Shown in pieces: positions 8,133 through 19,616 of a stretch of DNA of 64,000 nucleotides (its first letter is position 1; each line of letters starts with the position of its first letter). Origin of the DNA: Verrucomicrobiota bacterium JB022 (GTDB taxonomy: Bacteria > Verrucomicrobiota > Verrucomicrobiia > Opitutales > Oceanipulchritudinaceae); contig JAUTCQ010000017.1 in the NCBI GenBank assembly GCA_030673845.1, positions 62,001 through 126,000 of the forward strand. The letters run 5' to 3'. A program made the translations under genes and the position numbers. The notes under the pieces were generated by a model. That model saw only the letters and a list, made by a program, of their open reading frames with translations. It had not been told where the DNA came from and did no database searches.

Positions 8133-8561
8133 TCAGGCCAGCGGATTCCAGACCCGTTGAAAGCCGAAGCCCTGGAAATCCTTGAGGTTCATCGTCGCGA
8201 ATTCACGAATCCCATGGTGTCTCAAAGTGAGGGCGATGCGTGCATCGACAATGGTTCGATAGCCCCGCTCAGTGTCGGTCGCCCAATTCCACAAAGCTTG
8301 TGCTACGGCGGGTGCGTAGTCGATGCAGGTCCAGGCAGGATTGCTTTTGAGACGTAGGCAATACTCTGCCGCTCGGCAGGCGGGGTACGGTTTTGGAAAA
8401 ATGACTGGGTTTCGCAGCGCCATGTAAAGCTCAACCAGGACGAGTTCACAGAGCGCCAAAGGCGATTCAACCTGCCCCTGCATGAACTCCAGCGCTTTCG
8501 CATGAAGGGCGGAAGCAGGATTGGCTGCGTGGATCAAGATATTGGTATCAACCGAGATCAC
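8133..8561 (-). CDS. vapC: VapC-type PIN-domain toxin
   Basis: 142 residues. The PIN-domain acidic residues are in place: ISVDTNILIH (Asp5), LVELY (Glu near 45), IVDARIAL (Asp near 106) and MNLKDFQGF (Asp near 126). PIN toxins cut RNA, often tRNA, using Mg2+ at these residues. It starts with GTG at 8561, overlapping the stop of the antitoxin gene by four bases (GTGA), so the two are translationally coupled in the usual antitoxin-first order. The gene pair sits directly upstream of the pyr operon on the same strand but 77 bp apart. Confidence 0.88.
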   Translation of the reverse strand: MISVDTNILIHAANPASALHAKALEFMQGQVESPLALCELVLVELYMALRNPVIFPKPYPACRAAEYCLRLKSNPAWTCIDYAPAVAQALWNWATDTERGYRTIVDARIALTLRHHGIREFATMNLKDFQGFGFQRVWNPLA

Positions 8562-8797
8562 TGCCGCTCTTCGATGGCTGTCGTTTCGTTACGCACCCGT
8601 TCCATCCCGGGCACCATTTCGCGCGGTTCAAGTGTGGGAAAGATCCAACGTGTTGGCTCTTCGGGCGGAAGGGGCGTCGTGGCCGCATAGGCTTCCATCC
8701 CTTGACGGACGACCTCCTGCAACGACCACTCACGCCGGGCAGCAATGTCGCGCAGCTTCTGGTAAAGATCGTCTGGAAGTTCCACCAAGGTTCGCAT
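8558..8797 (-). CDS. vapB: VapB-type ribbon-helix-helix antitoxin
   Basis: 79 residues from the ATG at 8797. The N-terminus (MRTLVELPDDLYQKLRDIAA, then EWSLQEVVRQGMEAY) has the beta-strand, helix, helix pattern of ribbon-helix-helix DNA-binding antitoxins. The acidic/proline C-terminal 35 residues would be the toxin-binding tail. It precedes and overlaps the PIN toxin gene by four bases. As in other such pairs it probably represses its own promoter. A longer frame to 8872 exists but lacks a better start. Confidence 0.83.
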   Translation of the reverse strand: MRTLVELPDDLYQKLRDIAARREWSLQEVVRQGMEAYAATTPLPPEEPTRWIFPTLEPREMVPGMERVRNETTAIEERQ

Positions 8798-8860
8798 CTC
8801 AAGCACTATCCTGAAGCAGTTTGCGGGCGGCGTCAATGCACGGAGAGAACAGGCGCGCAC

Positions 8861-8892
8861 GAAAAAATCCACCCCGGTTGCCCAGGGTGGAT
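8861..8892 (-). terminator. Intrinsic terminator after PEP-CTERM gene
   Basis: Perfect arms ATCCACCC (8867-8874) and GGGTGGAT (8885-8892) with a ten-base loop, followed on the minus strand by a six-base U-run (8862-8867). It lies 33 bp after the stop of the PEP-CTERM gene 8925-9581 and separates it from vapBC. Confidence 0.85.
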
Positions 8893-10058: not shown

Positions 10059-12407
10059 TCACTCCAAGCCCTGCAGCCACTCCCGCCAGTCCTGCGGGCG
10101 GCGGATGACGGCACCGCCCCGGTAGGCTGGGGCAAGCAGGTTCTGGTAAGCCGGGGCGGCGAAGCGCTGGCATTGCAGCAGGACGGCGGCGTGTTGGCCG
10201 GGGCCGCGCACGAGGCGACCGAGGGCCTGGTTGACCTTCAGCAGCGCGGGCAGGAGGTAGACTTCGCGGAAGGCTTCGGCGCGGTCGAGCCCTGTTTCGG
10301 CGGCTTCGAGGCGCGCCTGTTGCACGGGGTTGACCTCCGGTAGCGCGGGGCCGACGACCACCGCCCGCTCTACGCGCCCGCCCAGCAGGTCGATACCCTC
10401 GCTCAGGCCGCTGCCCAGCACGAGCAGCAATAGGTGGGCGTTGAGCAGCGCCAGCTCCAGGAAGTTCGTCAGCTCGCCGAGCGGCTGCCCACGCGGCGGG
10501 ATCACCACCGTCAGGTGCGGCTCGCGGGCCTGCACCTCGCGCTTGATCGCCTCGGCGTAGGCGTAGCTGGGGAAAAACGCGACCACCGGCAGCAGCGGGC
10601 CGCCCGTCGTCATCTCGATCAGCGTCTCGGCGGTCAGGCCATAGCCGCGCGCCCGGCTTTTGTAGCGGGTATCGACGCGCGTATCGACGGCGATGGTGTA
10701 GGCCCCTTCGCGCCAAGGGGCTTCGGCTTCGATCCAGTAGCCGGAGTCGGCGGGCAGCCCGAGCCCTCGGCAGGTGAGGTCGCGCGGCTCGAGGGTGGCC
10801 GACATGAGCACGGCCTGCTGATACTGGCGCAGCGTTTGCGCGATCTCCGGCGCGGCGTTGAGGCAATCGAGCCGCAAATGGCCCTTCTCCGGTGCCCATT
10901 CGAGGATAGTCAGCGTGGGGCGTTCGAGGGTTTGGTAGGTGCCCTCGATCTCGCCCAGCAGCTCCAGCGCAAACGGTGTCAACACCTCCGCCAGCAGCCA
11001 GGTTTGCGAGAGCCGCTCGCTGCACTTGGCCATCAGTTGGCGGAGCTCGGCCAGGCTTTCCGGCGGCAGGCGCTCGACTGCATCCAGCCCGCGCAGCCAG
11101 TCCTCCAGCTCGTGCAGGCACTGGACGATCGGCCGCGAGGCTCCCTGCAGTTGCAGCTCTGCGGCAAGGATCGAAATGTCTTCGGCGCGCAGGCGGCGAC
11201 TCCAGCCGGAGGCGACACGACTGGCGAGGTTGTGCGCCTCGTCGATCAGCAGCAGTGTCTGGCGCGGGTCGAAGCCCGGTTGCTCGGTGAAGATGCGGGA
11301 GTGCCGGGGCGAGAACACGTAATTGTAATCGCCCAGCCACACTTCGCAAAAGGGCAGCAGCGCGCGAGACAGCTCGTAGGGCGGGATCTCCCACTGGTTG
11401 CCCAGCCGCTGCACCTCTTCGAGCGTCAGCGTGCCGGCGTGCAGCAGGGCGTCGATGGCGGTGCCGCGCTCCCGCCAACGGGAGGCCCACAAGTCGGGAT
11501 CGCGACGGCCCTGCCAGCGGCCTTCCGGGTCGTGCTCGGCCTGATTGCGCAGTTGGTAAAAGCGGAATCCCTCCGTGCCCGCCGGGCGCATACGGGCGAG
11601 CTGGGCGGTCGTCTGCCACTGGCCCGTGCTCTTGCCGGTCAGGTAGATCACGCGGTCGCACCGGCCCGAGGCGAGGGCCTCCAGCGCGAAGTCGAGCGCG
11701 AGGCCCGTCTTGCCAAAGCCGGTGGGGGCCTGGAAAAACAGGAGGCGGTCGCGCATCGCCGCTTCGGCCAGGCCCGCACGGGCTTCGGGTTGGCCGGGGC
11801 GCCAGTCGGGGAAGGGCGGCTGCAGGGCGATCTCGCGCAGCTCGACCCGGCGTTGCCAGCGCGCTTCCAGGAACTCCGCGAGCTGCCGCACCTGCCGGTG
11901 AAAGCGGTCGTGGTCTTCCGGCAACAGACGCACGGTCTGGGACAGGCCCTCGTCGATGTCGACAAACACCAGCTCGCCCCGCCGCTCAAACGCAGCCGGG
12001 CTCACCACCGCCTGCAGCTCCAGATAGGCCGCGAGTTGGGTGAAGTAGCCGGGGTAGACCTCGCGCAGCGCGGTCGGGTCTTCGGGCAAGGGGCGGCGCA
12101 CGGTCTTGATCTCGCGCAGCGTCTCGCCCGCCTCGTCGCGCACCACGAGGTCGATTCGGCCCTGCAGGTCGAACGTCCAGCCGCTTTCGCTCCAGAGGCC
12201 GTTGATCGTCACCTCCGGGCGCACCTCGGCCTTGGCGGCGGCCTGGGTTTGCACGGCACGCTCCTGCAAGGTCTGGTGCCACTGACGGCCGATCTCGGCG
12301 CGGCCACGCCCGGCGTAGCCCTCGCCGCCGCTGCCCGGGCCGAGGGCAAAGTTGGCCAGTTCGCGCACACTCAGCCGCACGCGCCGCGCTTCCCAATCTA
12401 CCTGCAT
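10059..12407 (-). CDS. PD-(D/E)XK nuclease-DEAH helicase fusion (DinG/XPD-like)
   Basis: 782 residues from the ATG at 12407 (MQVDWEARRV). The first 135 residues look like a RecB/Cas4-type PD-(D/E)XK nuclease: LQGRIDLVV (about 82-90), LREIKTV (about 97) and TQLAAYLEL (about 122). A superfamily 2 helicase follows: Walker A APTGFGKTG (about 225), DEAH box LLIDEAHNL (about 380), VLMSATLEP (about 520), GLSEGIDLLGG (about 660) and QALGRLVRG (about 725). XPD/DinG helicases normally have four Fe-S cysteines between motifs I and II; only two cysteines lie there, so no standard cluster is expected. The likely role is DNA repair or processing. Monocistronic, divergent from the gene at 12502. Confidence 0.85.
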   Translation of the reverse strand: MQVDWEARRVRLSVRELANFALGPGSGGEGYAGRGRAEIGRQWHQTLQERAVQTQAAAKAEVRPEVTINGLWSESGWTFDLQGRIDLVVRDEAGETLREIKTVRRPLPEDPTALREVYPGYFTQLAAYLELQAVVSPAAFERRGELVFVDIDEGLSQTVRLLPEDHDRFHRQVRQLAEFLEARWQRRVELREIALQPPFPDWRPGQPEARAGLAEAAMRDRLLFFQAPTGFGKTGLALDFALEALASGRCDRVIYLTGKSTGQWQTTAQLARMRPAGTEGFRFYQLRNQAEHDPEGRWQGRRDPDLWASRWRERGTAIDALLHAGTLTLEEVQRLGNQWEIPPYELSRALLPFCEVWLGDYNYVFSPRHSRIFTEQPGFDPRQTLLLIDEAHNLASRVASGWSRRLRAEDISILAAELQLQGASRPIVQCLHELEDWLRGLDAVERLPPESLAELRQLMAKCSERLSQTWLLAEVLTPFALELLGEIEGTYQTLERPTLTILEWAPEKGHLRLDCLNAAPEIAQTLRQYQQAVLMSATLEPRDLTCRGLGLPADSGYWIEAEAPWREGAYTIAVDTRVDTRYKSRARGYGLTAETLIEMTTGGPLLPVVAFFPSYAYAEAIKREVQAREPHLTVVIPPRGQPLGELTNFLELALLNAHLLLLVLGSGLSEGIDLLGGRVERAVVVGPALPEVNPVQQARLEAAETGLDRAEAFREVYLLPALLKVNQALGRLVRGPGQHAAVLLQCQRFAAPAYQNLLAPAYRGGAVIRRPQDWREWLQGLE

Positions 12408-12501: not shown

Positions 12502-13671
12502 ATGCTGTCTGTTCGCTGGTCTCTTGTTTGGTGCATGCTGTGGCTGGGGCTGTCCTTTTGGTGGGCGAACCCGGCCTGGGCGGTCGTCCGCATCGGGATG
12601 ACGCCCGAGCAGGTGATGGCCGAGTTGGGCAAGCCCAATGGCGAGCGTAGCTCCGGCCACGAAACGCTGTGGGTCTACGGCTCGGGCGGTCGCCTGACTT
12701 TCGAACATGGCGTGTTGGTGCGTGTGACCGGCATCGAATATTCCGGCGAGAGCGAGGCGAGCAGCGAGCGTTGGCTGACCCCCGAGACGGCGCCGGAGCT
12801 CCAGACAGGCGTGCGCTTCAGCGATGGGCGCGCGGCCCCGCAGAATACCCGCACCGGAGCCTTTTTTGAGCGCGAGGGGGCCGAATCGACCCCGGAGGCG
12901 ACGGCGCAACCGCCTTTTGAGGCCGCGGCGCCCGTTCCTTCGGCGGTGCCGGGCTTTGAGATCCCGCCCGCGCTGCTCCAGCCGGTGCCCGGGGTCGAAA
13001 ACAATCAGACGCGCCTGATTCGGGCGATGGGCCAATACCGCCCGAGCCCCGCAGGGGAGGAGGCCGCCTTGCAGGCCCCGGCAGACGATCCTTTGGCCCT
13101 GATGCCGACCGAAGCCGAATTGGCCGCGCGCGACGAAGACGCCTTCAGTGAAGCGGAGGCCTACGACGAAATGATGAACGACTTGGCCGAACTGGGCGGC
13201 TACGATCCCGACGCGGTCAAGGCACTCACGGGCGGGCCGCAGGTGATCATGCCCGGCATGGGTGAGGAAGAGGCGGAGCTGGAGGCTTACGGGTGGCTCG
13301 TCTACGCGGTCAAATTTGCCTACTGTGCCTTCATCTCTTTTGCCCTGATCTGGATCCTGATCAAGGTCTTCAACGAAGAGATGTTCCTGACCTCGATGCT
13401 GCTCTTTGCCGCGCTCGATGCCACCATCCTGGTCGGGGTGGAGGCGGCGATGAAGGCTTGGGGTTTCCCCGGCGCGATGACGGTCGACTACCTGCTGGCG
13501 GTGATCGTGATGGCGCTGCTGCTACCCTTCCTCTCGTGTGTCAAGGACCACATCCAGTCGCTCAAGATCATGTTTATCCACAAGGTCTTGCAATACGGCC
13601 TCACGCTGGCGTTCCAGTTGATCGCGTTTTTCTGGGTGCTCAGCCTCTTTGCCGGTTCGTGCGCCACCTAG
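12502..13671 (+). CDS. BamE/SmpA-like N-domain membrane protein, function unknown
   Basis: 389 residues. A signal peptide or membrane anchor (MLSVRWSLVWCMLWLGLSFW) is followed by VVRIGMTPEQVMAELGKPNG and LTFEHGVLVRV (about 28-75), the helix-strand pattern of SmpA/OmlA (BamE)-like domains, which fit outer-membrane or DUF domains that sense cell-wall context. Residues 80-255 are Pro/Ala/Glu-rich and likely disordered. The last 130 residues hold about four membrane segments (from VYAVKFAYCAFISFALIWIL). I do not recognise the whole as a named family. It diverges from the helicase gene across 94 bp. Confidence 0.7.
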   Translation: MLSVRWSLVWCMLWLGLSFWWANPAWAVVRIGMTPEQVMAELGKPNGERSSGHETLWVYGSGGRLTFEHGVLVRVTGIEYSGESEASSERWLTPETAPELQTGVRFSDGRAAPQNTRTGAFFEREGAESTPEATAQPPFEAAAPVPSAVPGFEIPPALLQPVPGVENNQTRLIRAMGQYRPSPAGEEAALQAPADDPLALMPTEAELAARDEDAFSEAEAYDEMMNDLAELGGYDPDAVKALTGGPQVIMPGMGEEEAELEAYGWLVYAVKFAYCAFISFALIWILIKVFNEEMFLTSMLLFAALDATILVGVEAAMKAWGFPGAMTVDYLLAVIVMALLLPFLSCVKDHIQSLKIMFIHKVLQYGLTLAFQLIAFFWVLSLFAGSCAT

Positions 13672-16193: not shown

Positions 16194-17057
16194 GTGATCT
16201 ACCTCGCTTACCACCAAAGCCGCCACGGCCCCTTGGCCCTGGACGAAGTCCGCCGCCGCTACGATACGGGGGAGCTGCCGCCCGATACCCTGTATTGGCA
16301 AGAGGGCATGGAAGCCTGGAGCCCTGTGCACGAGCTGTTGGGCGCGCCGCCCCCGCTGGCTCCGGTGCCGGTCGCGGCCCCGCCTCCGCCTTATCTGGAG
16401 ATCCAGAAACTGTCGCGCTGGGTGCCGGTGGCTACTTATTTCACCATGGGTGCCCTGCCGCTGTGCCTCCTGTTGGGGCTGATCGGCAGTATGGCGCTGT
16501 CGGTGAAGGCGGGAGGGCCGCCCTCGGAGGCGATCGGCTTTCTCGCGGTGGCCTCGCTGGTGGGGGGAGGTATGCTGGTGGGGCTCGGGGCGTTGGCGAC
16601 TCAAGTCCTCTACCTCACCTGGCTCTACCGGGCGCAGTCCAACCTGCGGGCGCTGGGCGCGCAGGGGCTCGAGTTTTCCCCGCTGCTCACGCTCGTCTGC
16701 AACTTCGTGCCGATGGTCAGCATGGTGGTGCCCTTCCTTGCACTGCGCGAGCTGTCCAAGGCCAGCCAAGACCCTCTCGACTGGCGCCAGCGCCAGCCCA
16801 GCCGGGCGGTGATCGTGTGGTGGGTGTGCGCCTTCCTGCCGATCGTAGTGATGTTTTTCAATTACCTGTTGGTCGGCATCACGGCCTTTTCGCTGCAGGG
16901 GATGCAGGACGGGACGTTGCCCCCGGCGGTGCTGGGCCTCGTCTTCGTGCTTTTCCTGCCGCTGCCGGTCATCATGCTCGTGCCGCTGTTCTGCATGAAC
17001 TACCTCGTCAAAATCATCACCCGCCAACAGGAAGCCTTGCGCGTCCGCCATGGCTGA
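16194..17057 (+). CDS. GYF_2-DUF4328 membrane protein, first of a tandem set
   Basis: 287 residues, starting with GTG at 16194. Residues 1-50 are a GYF_2 domain (GPLALDEVRRRY, GELPPDTLYWQEGM, W). A short Pro-rich linker leads to a DUF4328-type membrane domain with about six segments and the signature LYLTWLYRAQSNLRALG, then FVPMVSMVVPFLALRELSKAS. The C-terminus ends in a ITRQQEALR motif shared by its neighbours. GYF domains bind proline-rich peptides, so it may recruit a partner at the inner face of the membrane. Overlaps the next gene by 8 bp; function unknown. Confidence 0.8.
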   Translation: MIYLAYHQSRHGPLALDEVRRRYDTGELPPDTLYWQEGMEAWSPVHELLGAPPPLAPVPVAAPPPPYLEIQKLSRWVPVATYFTMGALPLCLLLGLIGSMALSVKAGGPPSEAIGFLAVASLVGGGMLVGLGALATQVLYLTWLYRAQSNLRALGAQGLEFSPLLTLVCNFVPMVSMVVPFLALRELSKASQDPLDWRQRQPSRAVIVWWVCAFLPIVVMFFNYLLVGITAFSLQGMQDGTLPPAVLGLVFVLFLPLPVIMLVPLFCMNYLVKIITRQQEALRVRHG

Positions 17058-17757
17058 GGCCTGCCAGACCACCCCCGCTACAAGCGGCGTCGCGGAAATA
17101 CCTTCCGCGCCGCAGGCCGCCGGGTTGGCCCAGGACGCAAACGTGGGCGCATGGGGGCCCTACCGCAGTCTTACCGGTTTGGCGAAAGCGATTCCCGTCA
17201 TGATCTGGTCTACGGCAATCGGTATGGCGGTGCTGATGGGAGTCGGCTGGGGAACGGCCGCTTACTCCAACCTGCTGCTGGCGCGCTCGCTCGCCATCAT
17301 TGGCTGGTTGACGTTCCTGATCTCTGCCGCGACGGGCGTGCTCTATCTGGTATGGCTTTACCGGGCCGTTGCCAACCTGCGCTATCTGGGGGCAGATAGC
17401 AGCGATTTCCTGCCGGGGGCGACGATCTTCTGCCACTTCTTCCCGTTGCTCAACCTCATCGTCCCCTTTCAGGTGCTGCTGGATCTTTCCAAGGCCAGCC
17501 AGTCCCCCAAGCACTGGCGAGAGCAGAAGAAAAGCCGCGTAGTGATCGTATGGTGGATCGCCACTGCTGCATTTTTCTTCAATGGGCTTTTCATCGTGAG
17601 TGTCGCCATGGTGGGCTTGCCTGCGCACTCCGCTATGTTAGTGACGATCAGCGCCTGGGCCACGCTGGCCAGCTTCGTTATCCCGCCACTGTGTCTGATG
17701 CATGTGGTGAAGAAGGTGACGCAACAGCAGGAGACCTTGCACGCGGTCTATTCATGA
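17050..17757 (+). CDS. DUF4328 membrane protein without GYF domain
   Basis: 235 residues. It starts at the ATG that overlaps the upstream stop by 8 bases. The N-terminal 35 residues are Ala/Pro-rich instead of a GYF_2 domain. The membrane part keeps the family signature (VLYLVWLYRAVANLRYLG about residue 100, then LLDLSKASQSPKHW) and ends VTQQQETLHAVYS, close to the next paralogue's end. It appears to be a paralogue that has lost the sensor or adaptor domain. Second gene of a four-gene operon; function unknown. Confidence 0.8.
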   Translation: MAEACQTTPATSGVAEIPSAPQAAGLAQDANVGAWGPYRSLTGLAKAIPVMIWSTAIGMAVLMGVGWGTAAYSNLLLARSLAIIGWLTFLISAATGVLYLVWLYRAVANLRYLGADSSDFLPGATIFCHFFPLLNLIVPFQVLLDLSKASQSPKHWREQKKSRVVIVWWIATAAFFFNGLFIVSVAMVGLPAHSAMLVTISAWATLASFVIPPLCLMHVVKKVTQQQETLHAVYS

Positions 17758-17773
17758 TTTTCCGTAGCTACAC

Positions 17774-18700
17774 ATGATCTATATTGCGCCCAATGGAGCC
17801 CAGGAAGGGCCGTTCGCCGAGGCAGAAGTGCGTCGCAGGCTGGAGGCTGGCGAAGTGTCGCCGCAGACGCTGTACTGGCAGCAAGGCATGGCCGACTGGC
17901 AGCCGCTGAGTACGCTGTTTCCCGGGGTGGGGGCCGCCACGGCCGGAGCCGTGCCGCCGCCGCCTCCTCCTCCGCCGCCCGCGACCGGCACCCCCGTATC
18001 CCGCCCCGCGCCGGCGGCCAGGCCCACATCTGCTGCACCCCGCGAGCACTACCGCAGCCTGCGTGGCCCCGCCAACGCGATCCCGGCCCTGATCTGGTCG
18101 ACGGTGGTCTGCTTCGTATTGCTGATCGTCGGATTTTTTGCGCTGGTGGCCGCCTCCAGCCCGAGCGACCTGCTGGCGGGCTCGCTGGTTATTGTCTTTA
18201 TGCTGGTCTCCGTCGTCGTGATGGGGGCGGGGATCGTTTACCTCGTGTGGCTCTACCGCGCGATGGCCAACCTGCGCTACTTTGGGGCGGAGGGCCTGAA
18301 CTATTCCCCGGTGCTGACGATTGTCTGCTATTTCCTGCCGATCGTTTCGATGATCGTGCCTTTTCTGGCGCTGCGCGAGCTGTCCAAGGCCAGCCAATCG
18401 CCCCACAACTGGCAGGCGCAGACGCCGACGCGCGCGATTGTCGTGTGGTGGATCGCCAGCATCGCCCCCATCCTCTGCTACTTCGGGTTGCTCATGGTGG
18501 GCATGGCGGTGGGCTTGGTCCAGATGCAGGAGGAGCCGACCAACGTCGCCGGGACGCTCGATGATGGGATTTTGATCGCGCTCGGGCTGGGCTATTTCGT
18601 GTCGGTCGCCATCGGCTTTATCCTCCCGCCGCTGTGCCTGATGCACGTCGTCAAAACGGTCACGCGTCAGCAGCACACCCTGCGCGCGGCCTATTCCTGA
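17774..18700 (+). CDS. GYF_2-DUF4328 membrane protein
   Basis: 308 residues. GYF_2 domain at 1-50 (GPFAEAEVRRRLEAGEVSP, TLYWQQGMADWQPL), then a 30-residue linker with a run of about ten prolines, then the DUF4328 membrane domain (YLVWLYRAMANLRYFG, LRELSKASQSPHNW) and the tail VTRQQHTLRAAYS. The poly-proline linker is the kind of ligand GYF domains bind, so self-association or binding between paralogues is plausible but only inferred. It starts 16 bp after its upstream neighbour in the same operon. Confidence 0.82.
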   Translation: MIYIAPNGAQEGPFAEAEVRRRLEAGEVSPQTLYWQQGMADWQPLSTLFPGVGAATAGAVPPPPPPPPPATGTPVSRPAPAARPTSAAPREHYRSLRGPANAIPALIWSTVVCFVLLIVGFFALVAASSPSDLLAGSLVIVFMLVSVVVMGAGIVYLVWLYRAMANLRYFGAEGLNYSPVLTIVCYFLPIVSMIVPFLALRELSKASQSPHNWQAQTPTRAIVVWWIASIAPILCYFGLLMVGMAVGLVQMQEEPTNVAGTLDDGILIALGLGYFVSVAIGFILPPLCLMHVVKTVTRQQHTLRAAYS

Positions 18701-18719
18701 GATTTTCACGACTCCCACT

Positions 18720-19616
18720 ATGATCTACCTGTCGCGCGAACGGGGCCAGGAGGGCCCATACCCCGAAGAAGAAGTCCGCCGCCTGCACGAGGCGGGTGAA
18801 CTGCCGCCCCGTACCCTCTACTGGAAGCAGGGCATGCCCGACTGGCGCCCTCTCTCCGAGCTGCTGGGCGAGACGGCGACCGATGAGGCGCTGGCCCGCC
18901 TGCAGCCTCCTCCCATGCCGCCCACCGCACCGGCGACGCAGGCTGCGCCCACCGCTTGGGCTCCCGTCTCCGCCGCGCCAGCCCGGCGGGAGTGGTCGGC
19001 CCTCGACGGGTTGAGTAATGGCATCGTGATCTCATATGGCATCACCGCCGTGCTCACGCTGATCGATGTGGCAATCGGGATGATGAACCGCCCGGCACCC
19101 CACGCGACCACTGCCTATGCGAGCCCGCTGCCTCTCATCGCTGGTTTGGCCTCGATGGCCGGCTGGGTGCTGCTTTTGATCTGGACCTACAAAGCGGTCA
19201 AGAACGCCCGCCGGATGGATGGAGACAGCACCAGCATTTCCCCCCTGTGGGCGGTGCTGGCGTGGATCATCCCGTTTGTAAACTTGGTGATGCCTTTCTT
19301 CGCCTTGCGCGTCCTGTCGCGGATCGCCAAAGACCCGCGCCCAGGATACTGGGAGGACGAGAATGCGCACCCGTTGATCTATGTCTGGTGGACCCTCGTC
19401 TGGCTGCAATTTGCGTGGGCCATGGTCTATACGGTGCGCATCTACACGCGGGTGGTGGAATCTGGTGCCGCCCTGCACGTGGTGGAGCGGATCAATGTAG
19501 AGTTTTACGGCTCCATGCTCGTCTCGCAGACCTTTGCGGGCGTGATTGCCTTGGTGATCGCCCTCACCATCCGCGCCGTCACCCGCGAGCTGGAGAAGCA
19601 CCGCCCGCAGGAGTAG
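18720..19616 (+). CDS. GYF_2-DUF4328 membrane protein, divergent member
   Basis: 298 residues. GYF_2 domain at 1-50 (GPYPEEEVRRLHEAGELPP, TLYWKQGMPDWRPL). The membrane domain has diverged: LLIWTYKAVKNARRMDGDS replaces the WLYRA..NLR signature, and PFFALRVLSRIAKDPRPGYW replaces the LRELSKAS motif. The end is AVTRELEKHRPQE. Last gene of the four-gene operon, 19 bp after its neighbour, followed by a hairpin terminator at 19622-19651. Confidence 0.8.
   Translation: MIYLSRERGQEGPYPEEEVRRLHEAGELPPRTLYWKQGMPDWRPLSELLGETATDEALARLQPPPMPPTAPATQAAPTAWAPVSAAPARREWSALDGLSNGIVISYGITAVLTLIDVAIGMMNRPAPHATTAYASPLPLIAGLASMAGWVLLLIWTYKAVKNARRMDGDSTSISPLWAVLAWIIPFVNLVMPFFALRVLSRIAKDPRPGYWEDENAHPLIYVWWTLVWLQFAWAMVYTVRIYTRVVESGAALHVVERINVEFYGSMLVSQTFAGVIALVIALTIRAVTRELEKHRPQE

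Follow-up and report, generated by a model that had tools for sequence, protein, structure and literature searches.

The gene at positions 10059 to 12407 of the window (the whole 64,000-nucleotide stretch of DNA that was analysed) encodes a nuclease-helicase that, judged from sequence and structural models, is probably best explained as a whole as a cluster-free form of the EndoDinG proteins. By the same comparisons its N-terminus is a predicted PD-(D/E)XK nuclease whose catalytic set is complete; it is joined to an SF2 motor of XPD/DinG type that has kept its ATPase motifs, and the Fe-S domain of this motor persists as a pseudo-domain without ligand cysteines. Such a cluster-free variant of a known nuclease-helicase fusion was found described nowhere in the literature searched, and the surprise is a moderate one, since other subgroups are known to include DinG relatives without a cluster. 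The features assigned to the gene, all by prediction, are as follows:

10059..12407 (-), whole gene: PD-(D/E)XK nuclease and XPD/DinG helicase, 782 aa, without Fe-S ligands
11832..12407 (-), PD-(D/E)XK nuclease domain, residues 1-192, with conserved H44, E65, D86, E99, K101, Q124 and Y128
11583..11810 (-), first part of motor domain 1, residues 200-275, with Walker A (GFGKT, K233); the boundary is our choice
11358..11558 (-), pseudo Fe-S domain, residues 284-350; ligand columns at D293, G300, R301 (approximate) and P342
11232..11243 (-), DEAH box (motif II), residues 389-392
10908..11210 (-), Arch-like helical insert, residues about 400-500; boundary inferred from the model
10128..10895 (-), motor domain 2, residues 505-760, Helicase_C_2 at 608-759, with conserved E670, G676, Q727, G730, R731 and R734

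The reading frame starts with an ATG at 12407 and its stop codon ends at 10059, giving a product of 782 aa; an in-frame TTG upstream would give 859 aa, and the frames of relatives align from approximately the ATG at 12407. Three Pfam families match above their cut-offs, namely PDDEXK_1 (residues 43-182, E 1.1e-7), DEAD_2 (residues 320-410, E 1.6e-10) and Helicase_C_2 (residues 608-759, E 5.5e-20), and a full-length AlphaFold model built from a 57-protein alignment reached a pLDDT of 92.9 and a pTM of 0.92. The nearest named record, from Puniceicoccaceae bacterium 5H (Verrucomicrobiota), is 78% identical to the window protein. A search for related loci returned one locus among genome contigs, in a relative of the same genus, and at least one among viral contigs.

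The sequence-only reading had recognised a RecB/Cas4-like nuclease in an N-terminal GRID, EIKT and QLAAYL pattern, and this proposal is borne out by the PDDEXK_1 match, the invariant catalytic set and nuclease structures retrieved by Foldseek. The pattern corresponds to D86 (GRID), E99 and K101 (EIKT) and Q124 and Y128 (QLAAYL), which together with H44 and E65 show no variation across all 57 aligned proteins. The same H-E-D-E-K-Q-Y set is unchanged in all 129 rows that hold all seven columns, cluster-free rows included (130 rows in total, among which L045 is cut at the start and retains its four available residues, and L032 duplicates L003). Structure prediction of the N-terminal region, the check proposed in that reading, yielded a PD-(D/E)XK fold for the isolated residues 1-192 (33-protein alignment, pLDDT 93.9, pTM 0.89). 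The top Foldseek row for this domain was 9kqh (E 6.5e-9), followed by the Cas4-like SSO0001, AddA, AdnA, RecE, ACE1, MGME1 and EXO5. A role of the nuclease-helicase pair in resection or cleavage of DNA, as originally suggested from its sequence, is plausible; for the related EndoDinG of Bdellovibrio, endonuclease and not exonuclease activity is mentioned as unpublished data in the main text of a review (PMC11981726).

The assignment of the remainder to a DEAH helicase of XPD/DinG type likewise stands, given the DEAD_2 and Helicase_C_2 matches, the presence of both Walker A (GFGKT) and DEAH, and the structures that resemble the model. In VIA-align the top row was XPD (4a15, Z 26.2, rmsd 3.6, 537 residues), tied with 9kqh (Z 25.9, rmsd 5.7, 713 residues, spanning 7-763 of the model), with TFIIH XPD, DinG and CasDinG in lower-scoring rows. 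A profile of the family matched 9kqh, a DinG of Finegoldia magna, with an E-value of 5.3e-168 across residues 7-760 of the window protein. Fourteen motor-motif residues were checked, and every one of the 31 proteins without the fourth Fe-S ligand has them unchanged; among the 129 proteins compared, two others deviate at one of the 14.

That the four cysteines normally found between motifs I and II are missing, as had been noted at the outset, was confirmed. The window protein has seven cysteines in total, and only C250 and C354 lie between K233 of motif I and D389 of motif II, leaving none from residue 251 to 353. Aligned to a four-cysteine relative, the ligand columns are occupied by D293, G300, R301 and P342, the middle two being tentative owing to gaps. 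In the closest relative, at 78% identity, the ligand cysteines are missing as well, which excludes a sequencing error.

Homologues were gathered from three sets: 40 of 55 relatives gave a match, as did 120 of 286 class genomes at E 0.001 (the lowest-scoring of these are ordinary DinG-like proteins, to judge from their short C-terminal matches) and 280 of 375 genomes of the order at an E-value of 1e-30 or lower; order, family and class denote here the group codes used in the genome searches. The 130 proteins that were read were picked by match strength and family spread and are thus a non-random set, from which L032, identical in sequence to L003, was dropped. Of the order's 111 homologues, 54 show at least four cysteines at the site and 26 show three; the fourth ligand is missing from the other 31, the window protein among them. 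These classes are regional counts with variable spacing, and one protein counted as four (L020) is without the usual first position. No cysteine at all occurs in the region of 26 of these 31, and stray ones are found in the other five (L009, L104-L107). The 18 homologues (17 genomes) that belong to the class's other orders all have four or more cysteines, and all eight read from elsewhere (Enterococcus gallinarum, Burkholderia cenocepacia, Caballeronia, Acetoanaerobium, Paenibacillus, Cupriavidus, Listeria and one IMG/VR contig) have four; this last set is made up of that contig and seven out of 12 listed records of the plasmid collection (several of chromosome size), with none of the 16 phage-collection records listed. 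Ligand loss was therefore seen solely in the order of the window and in none of the 26 proteins read outside it. At several loci among L041-L073 (family f14), many four-cysteine members carry low-complexity, often Pro/Ala-rich inserts of variable length directly before the Fe-S region. The match at L030 (G019:C44) contains one internal TAA, and contigs C8 and C18 of genome G456 each hold a match of equal score and length, probably an assembly duplicate in a genome with 7% contamination.

The region that would hold the cluster is modelled with pLDDT values of 83-95 in its AlphaFold blocks. It is about six residues shorter in cluster-free than in four-cysteine proteins (59.5 vs 65.9), and, when scaled to that of motor domain 2 over non-independent pairs, its divergence amounts to 1.08 in cluster-free (30 pairs), 0.85 in four-cysteine (110 pairs) and 1.25 in three-cysteine proteins (52 pairs); the corresponding ratios of the nuclease and the Arch increase too. 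The pseudo-domain is thus retained, though perhaps under weaker constraint than the domain with a cluster. Two lysines of the pseudo-Fe-S domain contribute to helicase activity in the DinG of Staphylococcus aureus, as reported in PMC12345164. The mean number of Lys/Arg residues in the region is 7.5 in cluster-free, 6.9 in three-cysteine and 9.4 in four-cysteine proteins, and the net charge -3.0, -3.7 and 0.0, respectively, so that we see no sign of a compensation by basic residues.

Whether the cluster was lost once or several times was addressed on four trees built without the Fe-S columns. Treating presence or absence of the fourth ligand as a two-state character, parsimony required seven changes on a careful tree of 55 rows, seven on a quick tree of 83 rows and six on a thinned tree of 59 rows. 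A single clade of cluster-free proteins was marginally rejected by the AU test with 15 cluster-free rows (p 0.042) and was not rejected with the 59 rows, 18 of them cluster-free (p 0.40), from which the long rows L057, L027 and L028 had been removed together with 21 others as thinning. Family f1, with ten cluster-free, two three-cysteine and one four-cysteine protein, counts against one vertical loss, while the proline shared at the fourth ligand position by 29 of the 31 proteins without the fourth ligand (Asp in the other two) also fits one or few origins. We have dropped many independent losses as an established result, since, with the long branches removed, the likelihood tests do not rule against one clade. 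It is conceivable, though we would not wager on it, that the Fe-S cluster was given up several times within this one order, leaving three or zero cysteines today, with nuclease and motor intact. If so, these proteins would provide a natural series for studying the function of the cluster in XPD-type helicases, and would suggest that a redox-sensitive motor is selected against in this enzyme alone.

The loss appears to be specific, because it does not extend to a second Helicase_C_2 protein of the genome, also of DinG type: closest to the YoaA/DinG models and below their curated cut-offs, this protein keeps four cysteines (NYLC, GHAC, NRNC, PETC) in a pattern that looks DinG-like by eye. A search of low power found no LexA-like box near this paralogue. 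Another PDDEXK_1 protein of the genome has weak AddB-type matches and adjoins a RecB/AddA-like helicase.

A short RecO-like family is encoded close to the gene in eight of 14 neighbourhoods from other genomes of the order. In seven of them (L133, L134, L135, L136, L138, L139, L140) it is located upstream, same-stranded and either adjacent or one gene removed, the distance being within about 10 bases in two of these seven; in G001 it is some 2.4 kb away. Among the six neighbourhoods without it, L132 is an unfair test, as its contig ends about 0.9 kb upstream. Six of the eight family members match Pfam RecO_N at E-values up to 0.1, and of five scanned singly, one was over the cut-off (1e-7), two below it and two without a match. 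The match to TIGR00613 is below its cut-off, and the best PDB match of the family profile, RecO itself, is non-significant (E 0.14). The RecO-like gene is preceded by a DUF502 gene (one member tested) and, as we take them to be, by YbeY and PgpH. The window's copy has no adjoining RecO-like gene, the best match of the genome sitting on another contig, and none of the order's neighbour families (those shared by at least three regions) occurs in 10 class neighbourhoods outside the order. The link of the nuclease-helicase to recombinational repair is suggestive only. Elsewhere in the window, a VapC/PIN toxin gene at 8133-8561 (-) (TIGR00028, 1.7e-22) overlaps a gene for 104 aa without family match, perhaps its antitoxin, the pair spanning 8133-8872 (-). 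Divergent from the helicase gene, a 389-aa protein is encoded at 12502-13671 (+), with a weak BamE-like stretch and no significant family match. Four adjoining genes follow at 16194-19616 (+), three of which have an N-terminal motif (MIY..., GP..., LYW..GM) and then membrane-like segments and presumably resemble GYF-2-type proteins.

We infer that the motor would translocate 5'-3' along single-stranded DNA like its XPD/DinG relatives, that the pseudo-domain would, even with no metal cluster, continue to form part of the DNA channel, as reported for CasDinG and the S. aureus DinG, and that the nuclease would cut the strand fed to it; the setting is probably fork processing or recombinational repair. 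Cluster-free DinG relatives do unwind DNA (PMC12345164, PMC11981726). Disruption of the Fe-S motif in E. coli DinG or archaeal XPD, however, abolishes helicase activity (PMC12345164), and the window protein could accordingly be a weaker helicase. The same loss of activity would suit an enzyme turned mainly nuclease, whose motor without the cluster only translocates or anchors the nuclease and does not unwind, as would earlier work that found no helicase activity in the S. aureus DinG and attributed this to its incomplete Fe-S domain; yet robust helicase activity without a cluster was later found for that very protein (as reported in PMC12345164), and the motor residues checked are unchanged in 31 of 31 proteins without the fourth ligand, so we regard this alternative as unlikely. 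Far less credible is a cluster bound through residues that are not the canonical cysteines: unusual ligand sets do exist in the order, where 26 of 111 homologues have three cysteines, often with a His nearby, but residues 251 to 353 of the window protein include no cysteine at all. To our knowledge, a [4Fe-4S] cluster without any local cysteine is unprecedented.

An anti-phage function, or one as DinG component of a type IV CRISPR system, in place of housekeeping repair also seems very improbable to us. The PADLOC typeIV_DinG model does match the window protein (E 6e-61), but it scores the DinG/YoaA-type protein of the same genome far higher (1.6e-105) and is thus unspecific. Eight window neighbours were scanned; a sigma-factor-like gene among them matches MzaA (2.8e-10) and a phosphoribosyltransferase weakly matches two models, whereas the remaining six are without a match at E 0.01. 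No csf2 was found in the genome, a weak negative, as the control was positive in two of 14 genomes and over the cut-off in none. The gene's presence in 280 of 375 genomes of the order, moreover, fits a core gene. With the model preferring the paralogue and no csf2 (on that weak control), the type IV CRISPR reading was dropped.

There is continuing debate over the role of the Fe-S cluster in XPD, FANCJ and DinG helicases, where it could act as a structural pin, a redox switch or a DNA sensor. Four-, three- and zero-ligand forms of one enzyme within one order offer natural comparisons, and the window genome itself provides another, its cluster-free protein occurring alongside a four-cysteine DinG/YoaA-type helicase. 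In the window's lineage, the motor of the cluster-free EndoDinG would escape redox or iron control. The main text of the review names Cys-poor pseudo-domains solely in CasDinG, CasDinG-HNH and certain ExoDinG proteins (PMC11981726), and pseudo-Fe-S domains would extend with the present protein to a fourth DinG subgroup beyond these three. The same main text contains no word beginning with Opitut-, Verrucomicrob- or Puniceicocc-, and no title on a cysteine-free EndoDinG was among the matches listed when the open-access literature was searched.

Several nuclease families share the fold of the N-terminal domain, namely Cas4, AddA, RecE, MGME1 and EXO5 by Foldseek and Dna2 by the review's own DALI list (PMC11981726), but none of them is joined to an XPD/DinG motor, and any Fe-S cluster they have is, according to the same review, sited elsewhere than that of EndoDinG. 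CasDinG and the S. aureus ExoDinG have XPD/DinG motors with a pseudo-Fe-S domain unable to hold a cluster (PMC11981726, PMC12345164). CasDinG is part of type IV CRISPR systems. Where ExoDinG has an N-terminal DnaQ-type 3'-5' exonuclease, the N-terminus of the window protein matches PDDEXK_1 and PD-(D/E)XK structures, and the NCBIfam DnaQ-DinG models match its C-terminal motor alone. The 3'-5' exonuclease domain of ExoDinG is of a fold other than that of the window's nuclease. The Finegoldia magna DinG 9kqh has the same domain order, and the profile alignment to it extends over residues 7-760 of the window protein; it keeps four cysteines (KVC, VKC, NDC, VCP) that have no counterpart in the window protein. 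The 9kqh sequence has GRAAG in place of the GR.D of relatives and is perhaps that of an engineered mutant; no paper on 9kqh was found by PDB code, nor by title among the matches listed. With this solved relative and the EndoDinG subgroup (representative Bdellovibrio bacteriovorus HD100; Cheng 2025, PMC11981726), the nuclease-helicase fusion is already known and not new. The window protein shares with EndoDinG, as described there, the N-terminal PD-(D/E)XK domain with H, E, D, E and K and the XPD/DinG motor (MD1, MD2, Walker A, DEAH) in one polypeptide, but EndoDinG is described with a conserved CCCC Fe-S motif, none of whose ligands is present in the window protein, which we therefore file as a cluster-free EndoDinG variant and not as a typical member.
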